NCBI RefSeq assembly: GCF_000010325.1 | Contig: NC_009662.1 | Location: 578,501 to 642,500, forward strand | Direction: 5' to 3' | DNA from: Nitratiruptor sp. SB155-2 | GTDB lineage: Bacteria; Campylobacterota; Campylobacteria; Campylobacterales; Nitratiruptoraceae | Length of the DNA stretch: 64,000 bases | Part shown: one piece after another, positions 39,625 to 57,921 of the stretch | Numbering within the stretch: the first letter of the stretch is position 1 | Layout of the letters: each line of letters opens with the position of its first letter | Program-made: the position numbers and the translations under genes | Notes under the pieces: generated by a model | Database searches by the model: none | Seen by the model: only the letters and a program-made list of their open reading frames with translations | Told to the model about the DNA's origin: nothing

Positions 39625-41594
39625 TGAATCTTTTGGACCTGCTTTTCCTTTCTCCCAAAGATGCTTCAAATACAAAAGCTGTAAAAAACACGCAATCTTC
39701 ATCAGATCCTAAAATAGATTTTGAAACTGTGCTTGCATCGATGTTGCAAGATGAAAAAAGTAAAAATTATGGCCAGATCCTTGGCAAAAAGCAATCTCAA
39801 TTACCCCTAAAAATATCGATACAAACAGTTTCTAACACGGTGAACAATGCTTCAAAAGCAAATGGACGAAAGCACATACAAGAAATGCAAACAGTAGATG
39901 AAAAATCGACAAAAAATAGTTCTTTTCAAAGTGAGTTCATTCCAAACAGGCAACAAAAGGTCGCACTCTATACTTTGTACAAAAAGCTCTCAAAGAGTAT
40001 TCCTTTAGAAAAAGTTATTTTTAGGAAAGGGGAACACACAAAACCGTTTGATAAAAAATCTGTCCAGACTTTCACCTTCGTTCCAAAAAAGATTGTAGAA
40101 AAACGACAATCTTTGCCAAAAGGACTGCAAATACCCCAAAAGAATACCCATACAGCACTTGTTTTACAAAAAGCAGGAACAAAAATCAGCAAAAATAAAA
40201 ACAATGGGGTTAATAATCAAAAAATAGATAAAAATGTAACTGTTACAAAAACTTTTTCTTCGAAAAGCAGCAATGAAGAACAGAATACAATTCAATCTTT
40301 AGAAAAAAAATCGGAAAAACAGAGAGAAAATTTTATTGAATACAAAACGAATCAAGCACCTTTGAATCAAACATATACTTGGACTCCATCACATAGAGTA
40401 GACAATCAAAATGGCCGTTTGAAGGAAAACGAAATTATCGATAAAAAAAGAGATCGTCATGTAACTGCTCTACATTCTGAAAAACCTGTTTCAAAGAATG
40501 CGATACAATCAAATTATTTTCATAAAAATCAACCATCTATTTTATTATCGGATTCAAATGCTCATTCTACTCAGCAAATGATACTTCCAAAAAATGAGAA
40601 ATTACAAAATATACATGTTCCATCAAAGGCCTCAAAACGTTCTGAATCACCGAAAGAGAATATATATTTTACAAATCCACTTGTAAAAGATGATGAGGAA
40701 TCACAAAAGAGTGCACAAAAAATAAAGAATATGTTGGAGCAGTTGAATAGTTTGGAAAAAGAGCAAACTCCTTTGAACAACAAAGAGATTTCGCATAGAT
40801 CCGATACCAAAGCAATTGATACGATGAAAACATTTGATGGCAACATACAATTTCCTCATGAGAAAAAGAGTCAAAGTAAACATAAAAAAAGTATGTTAAC
40901 CGAGACTATTCAAGAGGTATTTTTTGAAAATGAACACCAATCTAGACAAAAACATGTTCATATTGGCAATAAGCAACATCTTGATGTTTCACAAATAGAT
41001 GCTCAATCTATTAAGAAACAGCTGTATGAAGCAAACGGTGAAACGAAAGAAAACATGTTCCAACATCGTGAAGATGCTACTGCCCAAAATCAAGAGATTT
41101 CTGTTTCACAAAATCCTGTCATTGGTAATGAAAGAAAAGGGGATAACAAAAGATTCAGTTTTTCAAAACAGATAGATGTGATTGAAAAACCCGTAGAACA
41201 ACAGACTCTTAATACGAAAAATGATACATCGCACCAAGAGAGTGAACACAATGCAAACTCCGACTCTTCTGCAAAAACTTTTGTAAGTAGATCCGATGAT
41301 CAGACTACTCTACTCAAAGAGAGCCATAAGCAACAACAGTTTATTATAACGCTTGACCAAACTCGTATCAAAATCAACTTCCACCATCAATCCATTCAGA
41401 TGCAATTTGTCAGTATGACACCTTTAATGATGGAAGATGGACTACAGCAATACATTGATAAAGTCATGCAGCAGACCGGTTTTGAAAAATATAAAATCAC
41501 TTTAAAAGATAAAGAGAAAAGAAGAGAGTTTTCCAACACAGCTGTACTTCCCTCAGCAAGAAGCGAGTCAAGTTTGGTAAATGTTAAGATTTAG
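39624..41594 (+). CDS. Lys/Gln/Asn-rich protein, candidate hook-length protein FliK
   Basis: The 656-residue protein is mostly low-complexity, rich in lysine, glutamine, asparagine and serine, with no signal peptide and no cysteine noted. Only the last 100 residues look folded (FIITLDQTRIKINFHHQSIQ onward, about 560-640). FliK proteins have a long disordered N-terminus acting as ruler and a compact C-terminal switch domain, and fliK is otherwise missing from this near-complete cluster. The usual L-x-L-x-P-x-x-L-G motif is not apparent. I therefore propose FliK from shape and position only. It overlaps fliA by 1 bp and the TPR gene by 14 bp. Confidence 0.55.
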   Translation: MNLLDLLFLSPKDASNTKAVKNTQSSSDPKIDFETVLASMLQDEKSKNYGQILGKKQSQLPLKISIQTVSNTVNNASKANGRKHIQEMQTVDEKSTKNSSFQSEFIPNRQQKVALYTLYKKLSKSIPLEKVIFRKGEHTKPFDKKSVQTFTFVPKKIVEKRQSLPKGLQIPQKNTHTALVLQKAGTKISKNKNNGVNNQKIDKNVTVTKTFSSKSSNEEQNTIQSLEKKSEKQRENFIEYKTNQAPLNQTYTWTPSHRVDNQNGRLKENEIIDKKRDRHVTALHSEKPVSKNAIQSNYFHKNQPSILLSDSNAHSTQQMILPKNEKLQNIHVPSKASKRSESPKENIYFTNPLVKDDEESQKSAQKIKNMLEQLNSLEKEQTPLNNKEISHRSDTKAIDTMKTFDGNIQFPHEKKSQSKHKKSMLTETIQEVFFENEHQSRQKHVHIGNKQHLDVSQIDAQSIKKQLYEANGETKENMFQHREDATAQNQEISVSQNPVIGNERKGDNKRFSFSKQIDVIEKPVEQQTLNTKNDTSHQESEHNANSDSSAKTFVSRSDDQTTLLKESHKQQQFIITLDQTRIKINFHHQSIQMQFVSMTPLMMEDGLQQYIDKVMQQTGFEKYKITLKDKEKRREFSNTAVLPSARSESSLVNVKI

Positions 41595-43563
41595 TCTCTT
41601 TTTCCTCTGTTTGCTCTCGGTCGTTTACGCTTCGACGAATGAAACAACAAACCAATATAGTAAGCAAGAACTTAATGAAACAAATGGTACTTTGCAAAAG
41701 AACAATACCTATATAAAAATAGTGTATGAAAATGCTTTGCGCGATTTTCGAGTCGGTTCTTATTATGATGCTCTAAATGAATTTTCTTATGTTGCAAAAT
41801 TCCCAGATACGCCCTATTTTTTGGATGCTTTGTACCAACTTGCAAAAACCTACCTGGCAATTGGTAAACGAACAGGAGAAAAAAAGTTTTTTTGGAGTGC
41901 TTTGAATTATCTCAATCTTTATATAGGACGGGGAGGTGTTGATGATGCGAAATACTTTTATCTCAAAGCTCTCATTTTAGAAAACTTGGGGTTTTATGAA
42001 AGAGCACTTGCATTGTATCAGCTAGGTTTGGCAAAAGCCGAGAATGATTCTATTAAAAAAGATATTTTGATTGGAATGTTACGAACGGCAGTACTGGCAA
42101 AGAAGTCGGACCTTTTTACAAAATATATGATTATGCTTTCTGTAGAAAAATTGACCAAAGAACAAAAGAAAGAGTATCGATTTATTCGAGGACTCTCATA
42201 TTTTTATCAGGGCAACTATGAGAATGCTATACGGTTGTTGTTGCAAACCTATAAAGAGTATGAAGAGTATCTCATAGATAATCCGCAATTTTACTATATT
42301 GTAGCAGAAAATGCATATCGATATGGAGAGTACAAAACTGCAAAACAGCTTTTTAAACGAATACTAAAATATGTCAAAAACAGGGATGTTTTACAAAAGA
42401 CTCTGTTACGTCTAGGTGATATAGCTTTCAACAGTAACAATATCCATGAAAGCATCGGATACTATTATCGTCTGATTCGAAAATTTCCAAAAAGTAAATA
42501 TGCAACGATTGCCAAACTCAAGCTGTTATATATCATGAAAAAAGATAAAAAGGTACAACACTATCTTAAAAAATTTTTACCTGATGCACAATTTTTGAAA
42601 AATCCTCAAAAGTTTACATTGGAAATTTTAGTCAAAAACAGACAAAACTATATCGGTTTTTTTGCATTGGCAAATTTTGGATTGAATGTACTTGAACTGA
42701 GAAGTGAAAAACTTATGAAACGCCTTGGCTGGGAGCTTTCATTGGTTCCTGTCAAGAGTTTGAAATATGAACACAAAGAGTATTTCCGAAGACTTTGGGA
42801 GCCTACGTTGTTGGATTTGAAAGATCCAAAACTCACGTGTATTTTATATAGATCCAATCCACAGTTTTTTGTAGAGATTTTCAACAAGTCTGTCTTGCTT
42901 CATATGGGTACGGTTTTATATCAATGTGAAAAAACGAAAAAAACCTACATTGACCTTTTGAAAAGAGCGTACGAAAAATTTAAGGACGATGCAATCTTGT
43001 ATAAATTGGTTGATGTCTATTATGAACTTGGCAAATATAGCAAAGCAATGCAATACCTTACGAAAGTGAAAAACAGAGGTTGTACGTATGCGATAGAGTA
43101 TAATAAGTTGTGTTTTTTGATGCAGCAAAAATGCAGCAATAGGTTTACATTATTAAAAAACAGATGTCAAAAAAATAGTTTTTATAAGTTGCTTTTTCTT
43201 TCTGCTGCAAAACTGGAACAAGGCATCATCGATACCTCTTTTGTACAGACCCATAGAGATTTTTTTGTCAAACATTATAAGAAAGATCCTGTTGTGAGAA
43301 AGTATGTGGAAATGTTAGCGAAGAAAATGATAGAAAAAGAGCAGTATCAAAAAATCATCGATCTTCTTTCCCCTATCGCTTCGTATATAAAAGAGGATTG
43401 TTTCTTAAACAGTATATTATCTCTATCTTATGTTAGAATTGGTAAAATGCAATATGCTGGCAAGATTTTAAATGAGATGAACTCTTGTGATAATGAATGG
43501 TATCATATCGCGAAGGCTGCATATGATGATATACTGTTTAGCAAAGAGATAGAGGGTGAATAA
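41581..43563 (+). CDS. Periplasmic TPR-rich protein, PflA-like
   Basis: The 660-residue protein starts with a signal peptide (MLRFSLFFLCLLSVVYAST). It then consists of helical tetratricopeptide-like repeats through much of its length (about 55-330, and again 440-480), with many tyrosines and phenylalanines. It lies between the FliK candidate and flgB. In C. jejuni and H. pylori the periplasmic TPR protein PflA helps form the wide scaffold that anchors many stators. Its size, export signal and location fit a PflA-like role, but sequence identity cannot be judged here. It shares one base with flgB. Confidence 0.6.
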   Translation: MLRFSLFFLCLLSVVYASTNETTNQYSKQELNETNGTLQKNNTYIKIVYENALRDFRVGSYYDALNEFSYVAKFPDTPYFLDALYQLAKTYLAIGKRTGEKKFFWSALNYLNLYIGRGGVDDAKYFYLKALILENLGFYERALALYQLGLAKAENDSIKKDILIGMLRTAVLAKKSDLFTKYMIMLSVEKLTKEQKKEYRFIRGLSYFYQGNYENAIRLLLQTYKEYEEYLIDNPQFYYIVAENAYRYGEYKTAKQLFKRILKYVKNRDVLQKTLLRLGDIAFNSNNIHESIGYYYRLIRKFPKSKYATIAKLKLLYIMKKDKKVQHYLKKFLPDAQFLKNPQKFTLEILVKNRQNYIGFFALANFGLNVLELRSEKLMKRLGWELSLVPVKSLKYEHKEYFRRLWEPTLLDLKDPKLTCILYRSNPQFFVEIFNKSVLLHMGTVLYQCEKTKKTYIDLLKRAYEKFKDDAILYKLVDVYYELGKYSKAMQYLTKVKNRGCTYAIEYNKLCFLMQQKCSNRFTLLKNRCQKNSFYKLLFLSAAKLEQGIIDTSFVQTHRDFFVKHYKKDPVVRKYVEMLAKKMIEKEQYQKIIDLLSPIASYIKEDCFLNSILSLSYVRIGKMQYAGKILNEMNSCDNEWYHIAKAAYDDILFSKEIEGE

Positions 43564-53425: not shown

Positions 53426-54481
53426 GTGGCCAAAGATCCAAGTAAAACCGAAAAAGCCACCCCCCGTAGGCGTGAGAAGGCGAGAGAAGAGGGGCAGGTA
53501 GCAAAAAGTCAGGATATTCCTATCTCTGCTACATTGATCGTAGTATTTATGTTATTCCTTGCGTATATTCCTTTTGCATATAAAAAACTGTATGAACTCT
53601 TTATGTTTATCTTTGCAGATCCTTTATATAATATCCCCCAATATAATTACTCCATAATATATCTGGTTATGGAGTTTATGGGATATCTGACAATACCCTT
53701 TTTCCTAGCATTGCTCATAACAGGTGTTGTATCGAACATTGCACAAATCGGCTTCTTGTTGACGTTCAAATCCATGGTCCCAAAACTGGAAAAAATAGAT
53801 CCTATTGCTGGATTAAAACGGCTTTTTTCATTAAAAACGCTTTTTGAACTTGTCAAAAACATTTTAAAACTGATTGCTGCAACTATAGTGAGCTATTTTT
53901 TGGTACAGTTTCTACTCCGAGATGTTTTCCAATATGCTACAACGACACCATATAAAGATGCAGTTCTTTTAGTGAAATATACCCTTATCATGATTCTTGG
54001 ATTTGCGATATTATCTATTCCAATTGCCGCCATTGATTTTTTCTTTAGAAAATTCGAGTTTGAAGAAAATATTAAAATGAGCAAACATGAGGTCAAAGAG
54101 GAACATAAACAGATGGAGGGGAACCCTCAGGTAAAATCTGAGATTCGAAAACGGATGCGCGAGATGAGTATGAATAGAATTATGGCTGAGGTTCCAAAAG
54201 CAGATGTGGTTATTACCAACCCTGTACACTTTGCGGTCGCTTTGAAATATGAAAAAGAGAAGATGCATGCACCAAAAGTGGTTGCTAAAGGGAAGGACTA
54301 TCTGGCACTCAAGATCAAAGAGATAGCTAAAGAACATGGGGTTCCTATAGAAGAGAATCCACCTTTGGCAAGAGCAATCTATCAAGCGTGTGATGTGGAT
54401 GAATACATTCCGGAGAACCTTTATAAAGCTATCGCTAAAATTTTTGCGAAAGTTTTCAAAAGACAACGACGAAGATTATAG
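53426..54481 (+). CDS. flhB: Export specificity switch protein FlhB
   Basis: The 351-residue protein starts with GTG. It has a basic N-terminus (KTEKATPRRREKAREEGQVA), four membrane helices, and a cytoplasmic domain with the autocleavage site written NPVH (about 264-267) rather than the common NPTH. FlhB controls the change from hook to filament export after self-cleavage between N and P. N, P and H are kept, so cleavage is likely. It overlaps the convergent diguanylate cyclase gene by 6 bp. Confidence 0.95.
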   Translation: MAKDPSKTEKATPRRREKAREEGQVAKSQDIPISATLIVVFMLFLAYIPFAYKKLYELFMFIFADPLYNIPQYNYSIIYLVMEFMGYLTIPFFLALLITGVVSNIAQIGFLLTFKSMVPKLEKIDPIAGLKRLFSLKTLFELVKNILKLIAATIVSYFLVQFLLRDVFQYATTTPYKDAVLLVKYTLIMILGFAILSIPIAAIDFFFRKFEFEENIKMSKHEVKEEHKQMEGNPQVKSEIRKRMREMSMNRIMAEVPKADVVITNPVHFAVALKYEKEKMHAPKVVAKGKDYLALKIKEIAKEHGVPIEENPPLARAIYQACDVDEYIPENLYKAIAKIFAKVFKRQRRRL

Positions 54482-55936
54482 TGCAACGGTTGTTTTGTTT
54501 CTACCACCAAGTTTTGAGCCATAGAGCGCATTGTCCGCTTTTTTGATAGCCTGATCAATACTTTCATTGGGATCGACACTTGCAACGCCCAAACTGATAG
54601 TCACTTTTCCAACTTCAGGGAAAGTGTGTGATTCTACAGCCTTTCTCAGTTTTTCTGCCATGGCGAAGGCTTGTTTTTCATCCGTTTCAGGTGTAAGAAT
54701 CAAAAACTCCTCTCCACCCCATCTTATAGCATAATCATATTTTCGTATATTTTGTTTGATGATTTTGGCCAGTTCTCGCAATACGACATCGCCGATATCG
54801 TGTCCGTATGTATCATTTATTTTCTTGAAATGATCGATATCGAACAAAATAACAGATAATGGCCGTTTATGTCTATGGCTCCGTTTAATCTCGATTTCCG
54901 CAATCTCTTGAAACTTGTGCCTGTTGAATAGTCCAGTTAATTTATCTACCGTTGCCATCTCTTCGAATTTGATCCTTGATATGGCAAAGTAAAAAAGTAT
55001 AGTGAATAAAAAGAGTATGAGAATAGAGCCTAGAAGAATATTTTGCCAAAAAATCGTATCAAACATCTTGATATTGTTATCGCGTTTAATAGAGACGATA
55101 TAACCTACGTTAAATTTGTTTTTATTGATAGCAAGAAATGTTATCACATAGTAGTTACCATCAATTTCTACAGATTTTGCAAAATTTTTATATTGTAACA
55201 GTTGATTGGAAATTGTATTTCGTATCTTTAATTTAATCTTTTGTATGGTTTTGCGATAGATGCCATCACTTTTGTCAGAAATTTTTTCATAATAAAAAAA
55301 TGGGCTATATTCACTTTGGATGAATGAGTAGATTCCATAACGAAACGCGATGCCCTCAACCATCAGTTTATTGACAATGAATTCGTAGTGTGCATGGAAG
55401 AGTTTTTGCAACTCTTTAGTAAAAATATCATATGAAAGTGCCAACTCTATAAATGCTATTAAATGATTGTTGTAATAAATTGGCTTTTGAAAAGTTATGA
55501 GAAGCTTGTTTGCCATATTTTTTTTATTATTTAGTGAAAGTTTTTTGCTAGAAGTCGCTAATTCCGGTTTATTCATATTTAAAATAAGTGTTCCATCCGG
55601 TTTGTAAAGTGAGAGATAATGAATATGATACTTTTTCAGTTTTTGGTAATAAGGAAAAAGTTTTTGATACACTCTTTTTTTGTTACTTGTTTGGGTGATC
55701 AACGTTAAGAGTTCTCGATCGTCATAGAACATATCGTAAAAAAAGGATACTAGATGTTGATAGGAGTATTTCGTAACACGGTATTCTGAACGCAATTGAT
55801 CTATTTTTTGTGAAAGATAGAGATCTATTCTCGTTTGTTTATCTTTTGAAAAATAGAAATATATCCCTATGATTCCAATGATCACAACTATGAGAAGCGA
55901 TATAAAGAGAATGACCGTTTTACTATTTTTTATCAT
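54476..55936 (-). CDS. Membrane-bound diguanylate cyclase
   Basis: The 486-residue protein has two membrane spans (about 8-28 and 285-310) enclosing a periplasmic sensor of about 250 residues, probably a double-Cache-like domain. A C-terminal GGDEF domain (330-486) follows, with active site GGEEF (RWGGEEFLIL) and the inhibitory RxxD site (RKYD) five residues upstream. It should make c-di-GMP in response to an external signal. It closes the PilZ-fliJ-motE-DGC operon and overlaps motE by 14 bp, so signal production is linked to motor genes. Confidence 0.88.
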   Translation of the reverse strand: MIKNSKTVILFISLLIVVIIGIIGIYFYFSKDKQTRIDLYLSQKIDQLRSEYRVTKYSYQHLVSFFYDMFYDDRELLTLITQTSNKKRVYQKLFPYYQKLKKYHIHYLSLYKPDGTLILNMNKPELATSSKKLSLNNKKNMANKLLITFQKPIYYNNHLIAFIELALSYDIFTKELQKLFHAHYEFIVNKLMVEGIAFRYGIYSFIQSEYSPFFYYEKISDKSDGIYRKTIQKIKLKIRNTISNQLLQYKNFAKSVEIDGNYYVITFLAINKNKFNVGYIVSIKRDNNIKMFDTIFWQNILLGSILILFLFTILFYFAISRIKFEEMATVDKLTGLFNRHKFQEIAEIEIKRSHRHKRPLSVILFDIDHFKKINDTYGHDIGDVVLRELAKIIKQNIRKYDYAIRWGGEEFLILTPETDEKQAFAMAEKLRKAVESHTFPEVGKVTISLGVASVDPNESIDQAIKKADNALYGSKLGGRNKTTVAL

Positions 55937-56375
55937 TTTTTAGTTTTGTCAAAATTACTGTAATTTTGTTTAAAGCTTCTGGATCTATAAAATTGAGTGC
56001 CTCTCCAGCTTTTTTTGATTTCATATTATAAAGGATATATGCGGCAATTTTCGGATCTTTGATTTTGGAGAGTTTTTCACCTGCATATTCTGGATCCATG
56101 CTTTCGAAGTCTTTTGCCAGTTTTTTGAAATGTTGAGACTGAATGGTCTTTATTTGATTATCTAGCATTTTTTTAAACCGTTGCAGTTTTGTCTCTTCTT
56201 CTTTGATTTTTTCAAGGAGAAGTTTTTTCTCTTTTATCTGTTTTTTTAAAATTTCTTGCATTGTTCTTAGTTTTTCAAGCTCTTTTTGTATCTCTTTTTT
56301 TTCCGTCTGTGCAAAAAGAGAACTAGTACTTATGAGTATGAAAACGGTAAGACTCTTCTGCCAAAAACTCTTCAT
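55923..56375 (-). CDS. motE: MotE-like periplasmic motor protein
   Basis: The 150-residue protein has a signal peptide (MKSFWQKSLTVFILISTSSLFA), a coiled coil (about 25-80) and a C-terminal MgtE-N-like domain (FESMDPEYAGEKLSKIKDPK, then AAYILYNMKSKKAGEALNFI). In H. pylori HP0256 (FliJ-like) is followed by HP0257 (MotE), the same order as here. MotE/FlgX proteins are reported to support stator stability in the Campylobacterota motor. The overlap with fliJ is 53 bp. Confidence 0.75.
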   Translation of the reverse strand: MKSFWQKSLTVFILISTSSLFAQTEKKEIQKELEKLRTMQEILKKQIKEKKLLLEKIKEEETKLQRFKKMLDNQIKTIQSQHFKKLAKDFESMDPEYAGEKLSKIKDPKIAAYILYNMKSKKAGEALNFIDPEALNKITVILTKLKNDKK

Positions 56376-56739
56376 GCTTCTCTTCTCTCTTTTGTTGTAG
56401 CTTTTTCATCTTTTGTTCTAGCTTTTCGTAAGCTTTTTTTGTAGCAAGTAACTCTTTCATCTGCTGAAGGATATACTCTTTTTTCTGTTCCAGTTGTTCT
56501 ATTTGAAAATCGATCTTGGAAATATTGTGCTTGAGCTCTCGAATACAGTTGACTGCATGAATCTGTTCAAAAATCGTTTTTCGTGTTTGATGTTCCAGTT
56601 TGTCGATAATTTCGAAAATCGATTGTTTATGTGCAATCAGCTCGCTGATCGATACGTCGATCTCCTTTTTTTTATTGGATAGTTTATCGAGTTGGTTCTT
56701 GTTTTCTTTGATGAAAAGTCGGAGTGAACTTTTTTTCAT
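56323..56739 (-). CDS. fliJ: FliJ-like export chaperone
   Basis: The 138-residue protein is an almost continuous coiled coil (about 10-125) ending in a charged EEKHEEFLAEE tail, as in FliJ. FliJ links FliI to FlhA and escorts export chaperones. Sequence similarity in this family is low, so the call rests on coiled coil, length and the motE neighbour. It overlaps the PilZ gene by 4 bp. Confidence 0.7.
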   Translation of the reverse strand: MKKSSLRLFIKENKNQLDKLSNKKKEIDVSISELIAHKQSIFEIIDKLEHQTRKTIFEQIHAVNCIRELKHNISKIDFQIEQLEQKKEYILQQMKELLATKKAYEKLEQKMKKLQQKREEKHEEFLAEESYRFHTHKY

Positions 56740-57776
56740 GCGTTTTTCAATTGTGCTAGTTTTTTCTGTTCTTTTTGGACATATTCATGAATTTTTTGCT
56801 CGATTTGCGCTGAGAGTTCTTCAAAAGTCCCCCGTATACAAAGATTATTTGCATACTCGATTTTATCAAGGAGCTTCAGATAGCTTTTGATTTTGATATC
56901 GAGTAGTGTAAATTCTATCTGTATGATATCGGCGTATTTGAATCTCTTTATAATATCAGGTTTGCCGTTGAAGCAGATTCTCGCCCCGCCTGCACTGATA
57001 TCGACCATTTCACCGTGTAAGGTATACTGTTTATCCTCTTTTTCGTCATGATAAAAAACTTTGACAGGAAGTTCTGTCCGGACTCTTGGATATTCCCTTC
57101 TTTGCGTTCGGCTCATTTCAAAAGTATGAGGAGTTTGTATGACGATTTTGCCATTTTCGTTGAGTATTTTTTCGATAGGAACTATAACTGTATATATAGC
57201 ATCATCTTTGCGTATAAAAATGATTTTGATAAGATCACCACTTTTTAGATCACTTGGTATAGCATCGGATAGCAACCAATACATATATCGTTCATCTTTG
57301 TCATATAGCGTTGCATTATAGGATTTGTTTTGATGGATAAGTGTCGCGTTTTGAAAGAGTTCTATATCTTTCGTACTCACAAGCGGAATATAGGGCGAGA
57401 GGATCTCAAAGCCCAGTTTTTTTCGCATATCTTTGATGATCCTCTCATCTGCGTTAGGGTTCTCTTGCAAATAAAGATCGACAACCTTTTCGAAAGGCGC
57501 TTTAAATTCGAGGACTACCATCGGATCTCGTCCCATTTTCTGAGCATAGGCCCATAGAAGCTTTATCTCTTCTGGAGTCAGTTCTCTGTCAAGAGCGTAT
57601 CGTTTGAAGTATTCAAAAACGCTTCTTTCTTTTCTATATTTTTGAAAAAGAAAACCGGCAGTGAAAAAGATTATAAAGCCGATTATTGACAGAACAACGA
57701 TGATCGTTGTTGTTTCACTGTCGCTGTTCCAAAACTGTGTCGCTAGTTTGACCGTTTCGAAACGGTTTCCTTCCAT
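56736..57776 (-). CDS. PilZ-domain (YcgR-like) c-di-GMP receptor
   Basis: I place the start at 57776 (MEGNRFETVK) after AAAGGATTTTT; the frame extends further but only into the promoter region. The 346-residue protein has an N-terminal membrane span (about 23-45), a helical region, a YcgR-N-like beta domain (about 130-220) and a PilZ domain with R227-x-x-x-R231 and D259-x-S-x-x-G264, both needed for c-di-GMP binding. YcgR brakes the motor on binding. A membrane-anchored version beside fliJ, motE and a diguanylate cyclase suggests local control of motility. Confidence 0.85.
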   Translation of the reverse strand: MEGNRFETVKLATQFWNSDSETTTIIVVLSIIGFIIFFTAGFLFQKYRKERSVFEYFKRYALDRELTPEEIKLLWAYAQKMGRDPMVVLEFKAPFEKVVDLYLQENPNADERIIKDMRKKLGFEILSPYIPLVSTKDIELFQNATLIHQNKSYNATLYDKDERYMYWLLSDAIPSDLKSGDLIKIIFIRKDDAIYTVIVPIEKILNENGKIVIQTPHTFEMSRTQRREYPRVRTELPVKVFYHDEKEDKQYTLHGEMVDISAGGARICFNGKPDIIKRFKYADIIQIEFTLLDIKIKSYLKLLDKIEYANNLCIRGTFEELSAQIEQKIHEYVQKEQKKLAQLKNA

Positions 57777-57894: not shown

Positions 57895-57921
57895 TAAAAA
57901 ATAAATCCCTGCCACCGATAA
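57895..57921 (+). promoter_or_regulatory. Sigma-28 promoter of flagellin gene
   Basis: TAAA (57895-57898), a 15-bp spacer and ACCGATAA (57914-57921) match the sigma-28 consensus TAAA-N15-GCCGATAA with one change. An AAGGAGG ribosome-binding site follows at about 57940, just before the flagellin ATG. Recognition by the FliA encoded at 38989 is expected. Confidence 0.88.

Follow-up and report, generated by a model that had tools for sequence, protein, structure and literature searches.

In B. subtilis a membrane diguanylate cyclase, DgcK, is paired directly with a PilZ motor clutch, DgrA or MotI (PMC7064775). Another group of PilZ proteins, YcgR-NpzN, was described from the Spirochaetales and combines a transmembrane (TM) helix, a pentahelical N-domain, a PilZN and a PilZ domain; the same work finds an enrichment of YcgR-like loci in the vicinity of motA/motB (PMC11800159). 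In the Campylobacterota, VidA/VidB of C. jejuni provide brake- or clutch-like motor control, and VidB appears to be independent of cyclic di-GMP (c-di-GMP) (PMC10790790). Here these systems are compared with four minus-strand genes at 54476-57776, located between flhB and a flagellin gene, in a stretch of 64,000 nucleotides (nt) of Nitratiruptor sp. SB155-2 (NC_009662.1, positions 578,501 to 642,500; the whole stretch is called the window and its numbering is used below). Nitratiruptor is a deep-sea vent bacterium, and the host genome is a single contig of 1,877,931 bases. On balance we lean, if only slightly, towards the view that the four genes form a flagellar operon in which a motor c-di-GMP receptor of the YcgR/MotI type is coupled to its own cyclase. 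The parts are each of a known kind; their stable combination is new.

Receptor, cyclase and motor-assembly neighbours

The preliminary description of this DNA had proposed four overlapping genes, and all four open reading frames were found on the minus strand in that order: PilZ gene, fliJ, flgY and cyclase gene, with overlaps of 4, 53 and 14 nt. Comparable overlap sizes were seen again in most relatives. The convergent flhB shares 6 nt with the 3' end of the cyclase gene. The features are the following (aa, amino acids):

56736..57776 (-): YcgR-like PilZ receptor, 346 aa (Pfam PilZ, E 1.5e-8; AlphaFold2 (AF2) model; structure matches)
57642..57713 (-): TM helix of the PilZ protein, ~aa 22-45, by reading of the sequence (model helix 20-63)
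57084..57098 (-): RxxxR c-di-GMP motif, aa 227-231 (R226, R227 and R231 invariant in 30/30 aligned homologues)
56985..57002 (-): DxSxxG c-di-GMP motif, aa 259-264 (D/N259 in 30/30, S261 in 27/30 and G264 in 30/30 homologues)
56323..56739 (-): FliJ-like coiled-coil protein, predicted export chaperone, 138 aa (position; FliJ matches of relatives)
55923..56375 (-): FlgY/MotE family E-ring protein, 150 aa (MgtE_N/FliG_M matches of the family; hhalign)
56310..56375 (-): predicted Sec signal peptide of FlgY, aa 1-22, MKSFWQKSLTVFILISTSSLFA-Q, by eye
54476..55936 (-): membrane diguanylate cyclase, 486 aa (Pfam GGDEF, E 6.7e-48)
54704..54718 (-): GGEEF active site, aa 407-411 (GGEEF or GGDEF in 11/12 aligned relatives)
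54734..54745 (-): RxxD inhibitory site (I-site), aa 398-401 (R398 and D401 in 12/12 aligned relatives)

The PilZ protein consists of the N-terminal TM helix, a helical domain (~aa 46-121), a PilZN barrel (~130-220) and a C-terminal PilZ barrel (225-333). Its AF2 model (29 sequences; mean pLDDT 84.9, pTM 0.42) contains a long helix, residues 20-63, that holds the TM segment, four more helices up to residue 121, and two beta barrels. The C-terminus is predicted to be cytoplasmic, because positive residues come after the TM helix. Among solved structures the best matches of the model are MotI/DgrA (5vx6, Z 16.7), FlgZ/PP4397 (3kyf, Z 15.2) and YcgR (5y6f, Z 14.7); residues 126-346 superpose across both barrels of these proteins, with a large root-mean-square deviation since the relative placement of the two barrels differs. 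The PilZ-family profile matches YpfA/MotI at 2.7e-5, and against the NCBIfam YcgR model the protein scores 15.7 bits, far under the cut-off of 400 bits. Its identity as a YcgR/MotI-type PilZ protein is well supported, and the membrane-anchored YcgR-like receptor of the preliminary description is borne out by the TM helix, the two-barrel matches and the intact RxxxR and DxSxxG motifs. From these motifs the protein is expected to bind c-di-GMP. A scan of viral contigs with the PilZ protein returned no relatives. Three proteins of 131-134 aa resemble it in the TM and helical N-terminus only and lack the barrels (L020:6765-7169, L025:4911-5306, L026:5294-5689); one of them is encoded between fliR and flhB.

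The order of parts in the model, from the long TM helix through a helical region to two barrels with RxxxR and DxSxxG, is that of the YcgR-NpzN proteins, the model helices reaching residue 121 being a candidate counterpart of their pentahelical domain. What sets the gene here apart from the YcgR-NpzN group is its linkage to fliJ-flgY and to a cyclase gene. MotI/DgrA, the nearest solved structure, serves as a PilZ clutch together with a membrane cyclase, DgcK, but it is without a TM anchor (its 209-residue structure is the barrels alone), is ~18% identical to the PilZ protein, and DgcK-DgrA is not described as a single operon. The YcgR brake of E. coli has the PilZN-PilZ two-barrel architecture in common with it, at 12% identity over the aligned residues. 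VidB is reported to act with no PilZ effector, and VidA/VidB are unrelated to the proteins of the window unit.

The cyclase is composed of TM1, a periplasmic sensor (~30-295), TM2 and a GGDEF domain (328-481), and in its AF2 model (mean pLDDT 85.1) the two TM helices flank a periplasmic sensor of ~265 residues. GGEEF, DIDHFKKINDTYGHD and RKYD are all present, so that the substrate and metal motifs as well as the GGEEF and RxxD sites recognized in the preliminary description are intact. The GGDEF part superposes on Bdellovibrio DgcB (6hbz, Z 27.2) and on PleD (Z 26.8). A Pfam search found no domain in the sensor, and structure matches were limited to the GGDEF part, the rows that reach the sensor being scattered and poorly superposed; from the predicted topology a Cache-like fold is plausible. 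The closest relatives of the sensor are cyclases of the Hydrogenothermaceae (up to 33% identical), of which the one with identified flanks (L140) lies between argininosuccinate-lyase-like (argH) and CinA-like (cinA) genes. The remaining sensors from Campylobacterota are more remote (22-29%).

The middle genes of the unit are taken as motor-assembly genes. MotE, FlbB and FlgY are names of one E-ring protein, whose gene is frequently found beside fliK, fliJ or both (PMC13023049). Like it, the window protein begins with a predicted signal peptide, contains a coiled coil, ends in an MgtE_N/FliG_M-like domain and has fliJ next to its gene; it differs in its Aquificota-type sequence and in its PilZ and cyclase neighbours, as opposed to the native purA-fliJ-flgY of Campylobacterota. 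In the family, MgtE_N was matched by 14/21 members and FliG_M by 16/21; the window protein itself matches FliG_M alone, below the cut-off (0.0034). An alignment of its family with FlgY from purA-fliJ-flgY loci of other Campylobacterota by hhalign gave 98.6% (E 9e-16), and a search of PDB with the FlgY profile gave no credible relative. What had been called a stator-associated protein is corrected to FlgY/MotE, a predicted periplasmic E-ring component, for which FlgY is a better name than MotE. As to the export chaperone, the 138-aa protein alone stays under the FliJ cut-off (TIGR02473, E 0.0044, 17.4 bits against 50.45), whereas 7/17 members of its family match Pfam FliJ (best 2e-8) and 10/17 match TIGR02473 (best 1.2e-9), and the gene is always immediately upstream of flgY. 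The label FliJ-like, which rests mainly on position and relatives, is a weak point.

TPR proteins of the PflA/MotC/MotK kind bind FlgY/MotE (PMC13023049). Elsewhere in the window (41581-43563, plus strand), directly downstream of a FliK-like gene, a 660-aa protein with TPR repeats (Pfam TPR) and a probable signal peptide is encoded, which is a candidate E-ring partner of this kind.

Conservation and origin of the unit

Operon conservation, which the preliminary description had named as a check, is well supported: each of the 18 Nitratiruptoraceae loci that were looked at has the order PilZ-fliJ-flgY-cyclase (in one of these, L030, the contig ends within the cyclase and fliJ was not called separately). 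Since this order persists while the cyclases fall to only 36-40% identity, the unit is more than a chance arrangement. In L028 and L036 flhB no longer adjoins, yet the four genes remain together.

The frame of Campylobacterota in which the unit had been placed does not hold. In family searches, on which all genome-wide statements here are based, the PilZ family was present in 6/249 sampled Campylobacterota genomes, all six Nitratiruptoraceae, and in 111/136 Aquificota genomes. A unit general in Campylobacterota was rejected on this distribution and on the order purA-fliJ-flgY at the other loci. The 18 Nitratiruptoraceae rows form one clade in the PilZ tree (support 100/99), and gene context agrees with the tree. 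In the Desulfurobacteriaceae (27 rows, ~17 distinct proteins) all 25 rows with readable context have PilZ-fliJ-flgY facing flhB, without a cyclase. In the Hydrogenothermaceae (10 rows) the PilZ gene lies directly upstream of motA; as far as the contigs extend, motB and another motB come next. It has been reported that the flagellar and chemosensory genes of Nitratiruptor were acquired from Aquificota, near Persephonella (PMC9321776). The PilZ receptor came with this horizontally acquired Aquificota-type flagellum, and only the cyclase is a Nitratiruptoraceae addition to the unit. The nearest sister in the PilZ tree is instead the Desulfurobacteriaceae (93/89, below the starred threshold), so the tree and PMC9321776 point to different possible donors.

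Further observations concern the surroundings of the PilZ gene. A family-2 glycosyltransferase gene directly precedes it in most Nitratiruptoraceae (L006-L009, L028-L031, L033-L035, L037, L040) and also precedes the second Hydrogenothermaceae PilZ copy (L053, L059, L060); it is missing in the window genome and in genome G029. The gene after the second copy in L053 (L053:10923-11975) encodes another PilZ protein (Pfam 4.6e-14), making a tandem pair. Between the window genome and G029 the PilZ gene (56736-57776; L017) is 98% identical (4-fold sites 79%), FliD is likewise high at 96% (88%), and fliJ, flgY, cyclase, flhB and fliR range over 80-92% (47-56%), which looks like a mosaic through recombination.

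Proposed mechanism and alternatives

Once c-di-GMP is bound, the PilZ protein would most likely act on the stator protein MotA, on the rotor protein FliG or on both by direct contact, which would slow or disengage the motor, as a brake or a clutch. Such a c-di-GMP-dependent effect on the motor is suggested by the homology to MotI and YcgR, by the motAB linkage in relatives and by the intact motifs; the target and the slowing are drawn by analogy, and "brake" is taken from the likeness to MotI and YcgR. The sensor of the cyclase may read a periplasmic or outside cue, with c-di-GMP made at the same membrane as the receptor, and product inhibition at RxxD would limit the output. FliJ and FlgY, an export chaperone and an E-ring subunit, would be ordinary neighbours; their presence would mark the operon as one of motor assembly, with receptor and cyclase produced in step with the motor. 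The fixed place of the cyclase speaks for co-production and possibly for a local c-di-GMP supply, of the kind demonstrated for DgcK and DgrA in B. subtilis (PMC7064775); a private pool would go beyond the conserved linkage. The cyclase is probably transcribed, and acting, beside the receptor. The receptor would have arrived with the Aquificota-type flagellum, and the cyclase would have joined it either at the base of the Nitratiruptoraceae or in a donor absent from the sample.

Among possible regulatory signals, a sigma-54-like pattern hardly exceeded the chance level and yielded no usable site, and simple promoter and terminator scans stayed near the shuffled background. Two weak FliA-like matches on the minus strand are both intragenic (54795-54819 in the cyclase gene, 56926-56950 in the PilZ gene), and none was found upstream of the PilZ gene. 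On the plus strand a FliA-like promoter, TAAA-N16-CCGATAA, lies at 57895-57921 upstream of the flagellin gene.

How much c-di-GMP signalling surrounds the unit bears on whether it could be dedicated. The claim that such signalling is limited in model Campylobacterota stands for C. jejuni, for which one cyclase is predicted (PMC10790790), and for H. pylori, but GGDEF domains above cut-off occur in 49/61 sampled Campylobacterota genomes (PilZ in 58/200), and the window genome holds 35 GGDEF, 22 EAL and 3 PilZ domains. With 35 GGDEF domains a "dedicated" circuit cannot be assumed. The six Nitratiruptoraceae genomes have from 12 to 35, and the operon cyclase is present in all six. Two more PilZ genes lie side by side outside the window (G000:C1:1302543-1303580; L027).

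Several points weigh against the coupling of receptor and cyclase: the 34 other GGDEF domains of the genome could supply the receptor, the Desulfurobacteriaceae keep PilZ-fliJ-flgY where no cyclase is present, so that the receptor does not depend on it, and an internal promoter inside flgY could drive the cyclase. Moreover, in one cyclase (L029:11787-13259) the active site has decayed to SEGEF and the metal Asp is gone, with RxxD kept. If the sequence of the metagenome-assembled genome is correct, this protein looks as though it were becoming a c-di-GMP receptor. Alternatively to the coupling, the receptor might control the motor while the cyclase feeds a cell-wide c-di-GMP pool for attachment and surface growth and sits in the operon for co-production with flagella, not as a private supplier. 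We regard this as a possibility of some weight though not a probable one: it agrees with the many GGDEF and EAL domains, with a receptor family that functions elsewhere without an operon cyclase, and with the homologous Hydrogenothermaceae cyclases, which have no place next to flagellar genes (L140 is flanked by argH and cinA); against it stands a cyclase strictly kept beside the receptor in every one of the 18 loci while the other GGDEF repertoire turns over. A fully closed circuit appears to us doubtful. In it, the lineage that received the flagellum together with its c-di-GMP brake would have added a periplasm-sensing cyclase to the E-ring operon, and envelope or motor conditions, perhaps relayed by FlgY, would determine a private c-di-GMP pool acting as brake on this very motor.

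The PilZ protein could also act not on rotation but on assembly or export (via FliJ/FlhA or FliI) or on the E-ring and FlgY, with c-di-GMP gating the building of flagella. In its favour, it is fliJ and flgY, not motAB, that constantly accompany the gene in Nitratiruptoraceae and Desulfurobacteriaceae. We nevertheless consider this unlikely, given that FlgY, with its signal peptide, lies in the periplasm whereas a cytoplasmic location is predicted for the PilZ barrels, that fliJ-flgY pairs are common without a PilZ gene (PMC13023049; also the purA-fliJ-flgY loci), that the family adjoins motAB in the Hydrogenothermaceae, and that the best structure matches are motor clutches and brakes. A neighbourhood fixed by ancestry, with no functional circuit, would fit a single gain in one clade; conserved overlaps, active and inhibitory sites that are intact in almost every member, and the persistence of the unit at loci without an adjacent flhB make it very improbable.

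Implications for flagellar c-di-GMP control

If receptor and cyclase are coupled as we favour, Nitratiruptor would be a natural case where gene order alone tells which cyclase supplies a flagellar brake. The three arrangements of the receptor gene, with motAB, with fliJ-flgY, and with fliJ-flgY and a cyclase, make local versus global c-di-GMP control of the motor directly testable. Finally, the unit suggests that regulators of the motor can pass from one phylum to another along with the whole flagellum.

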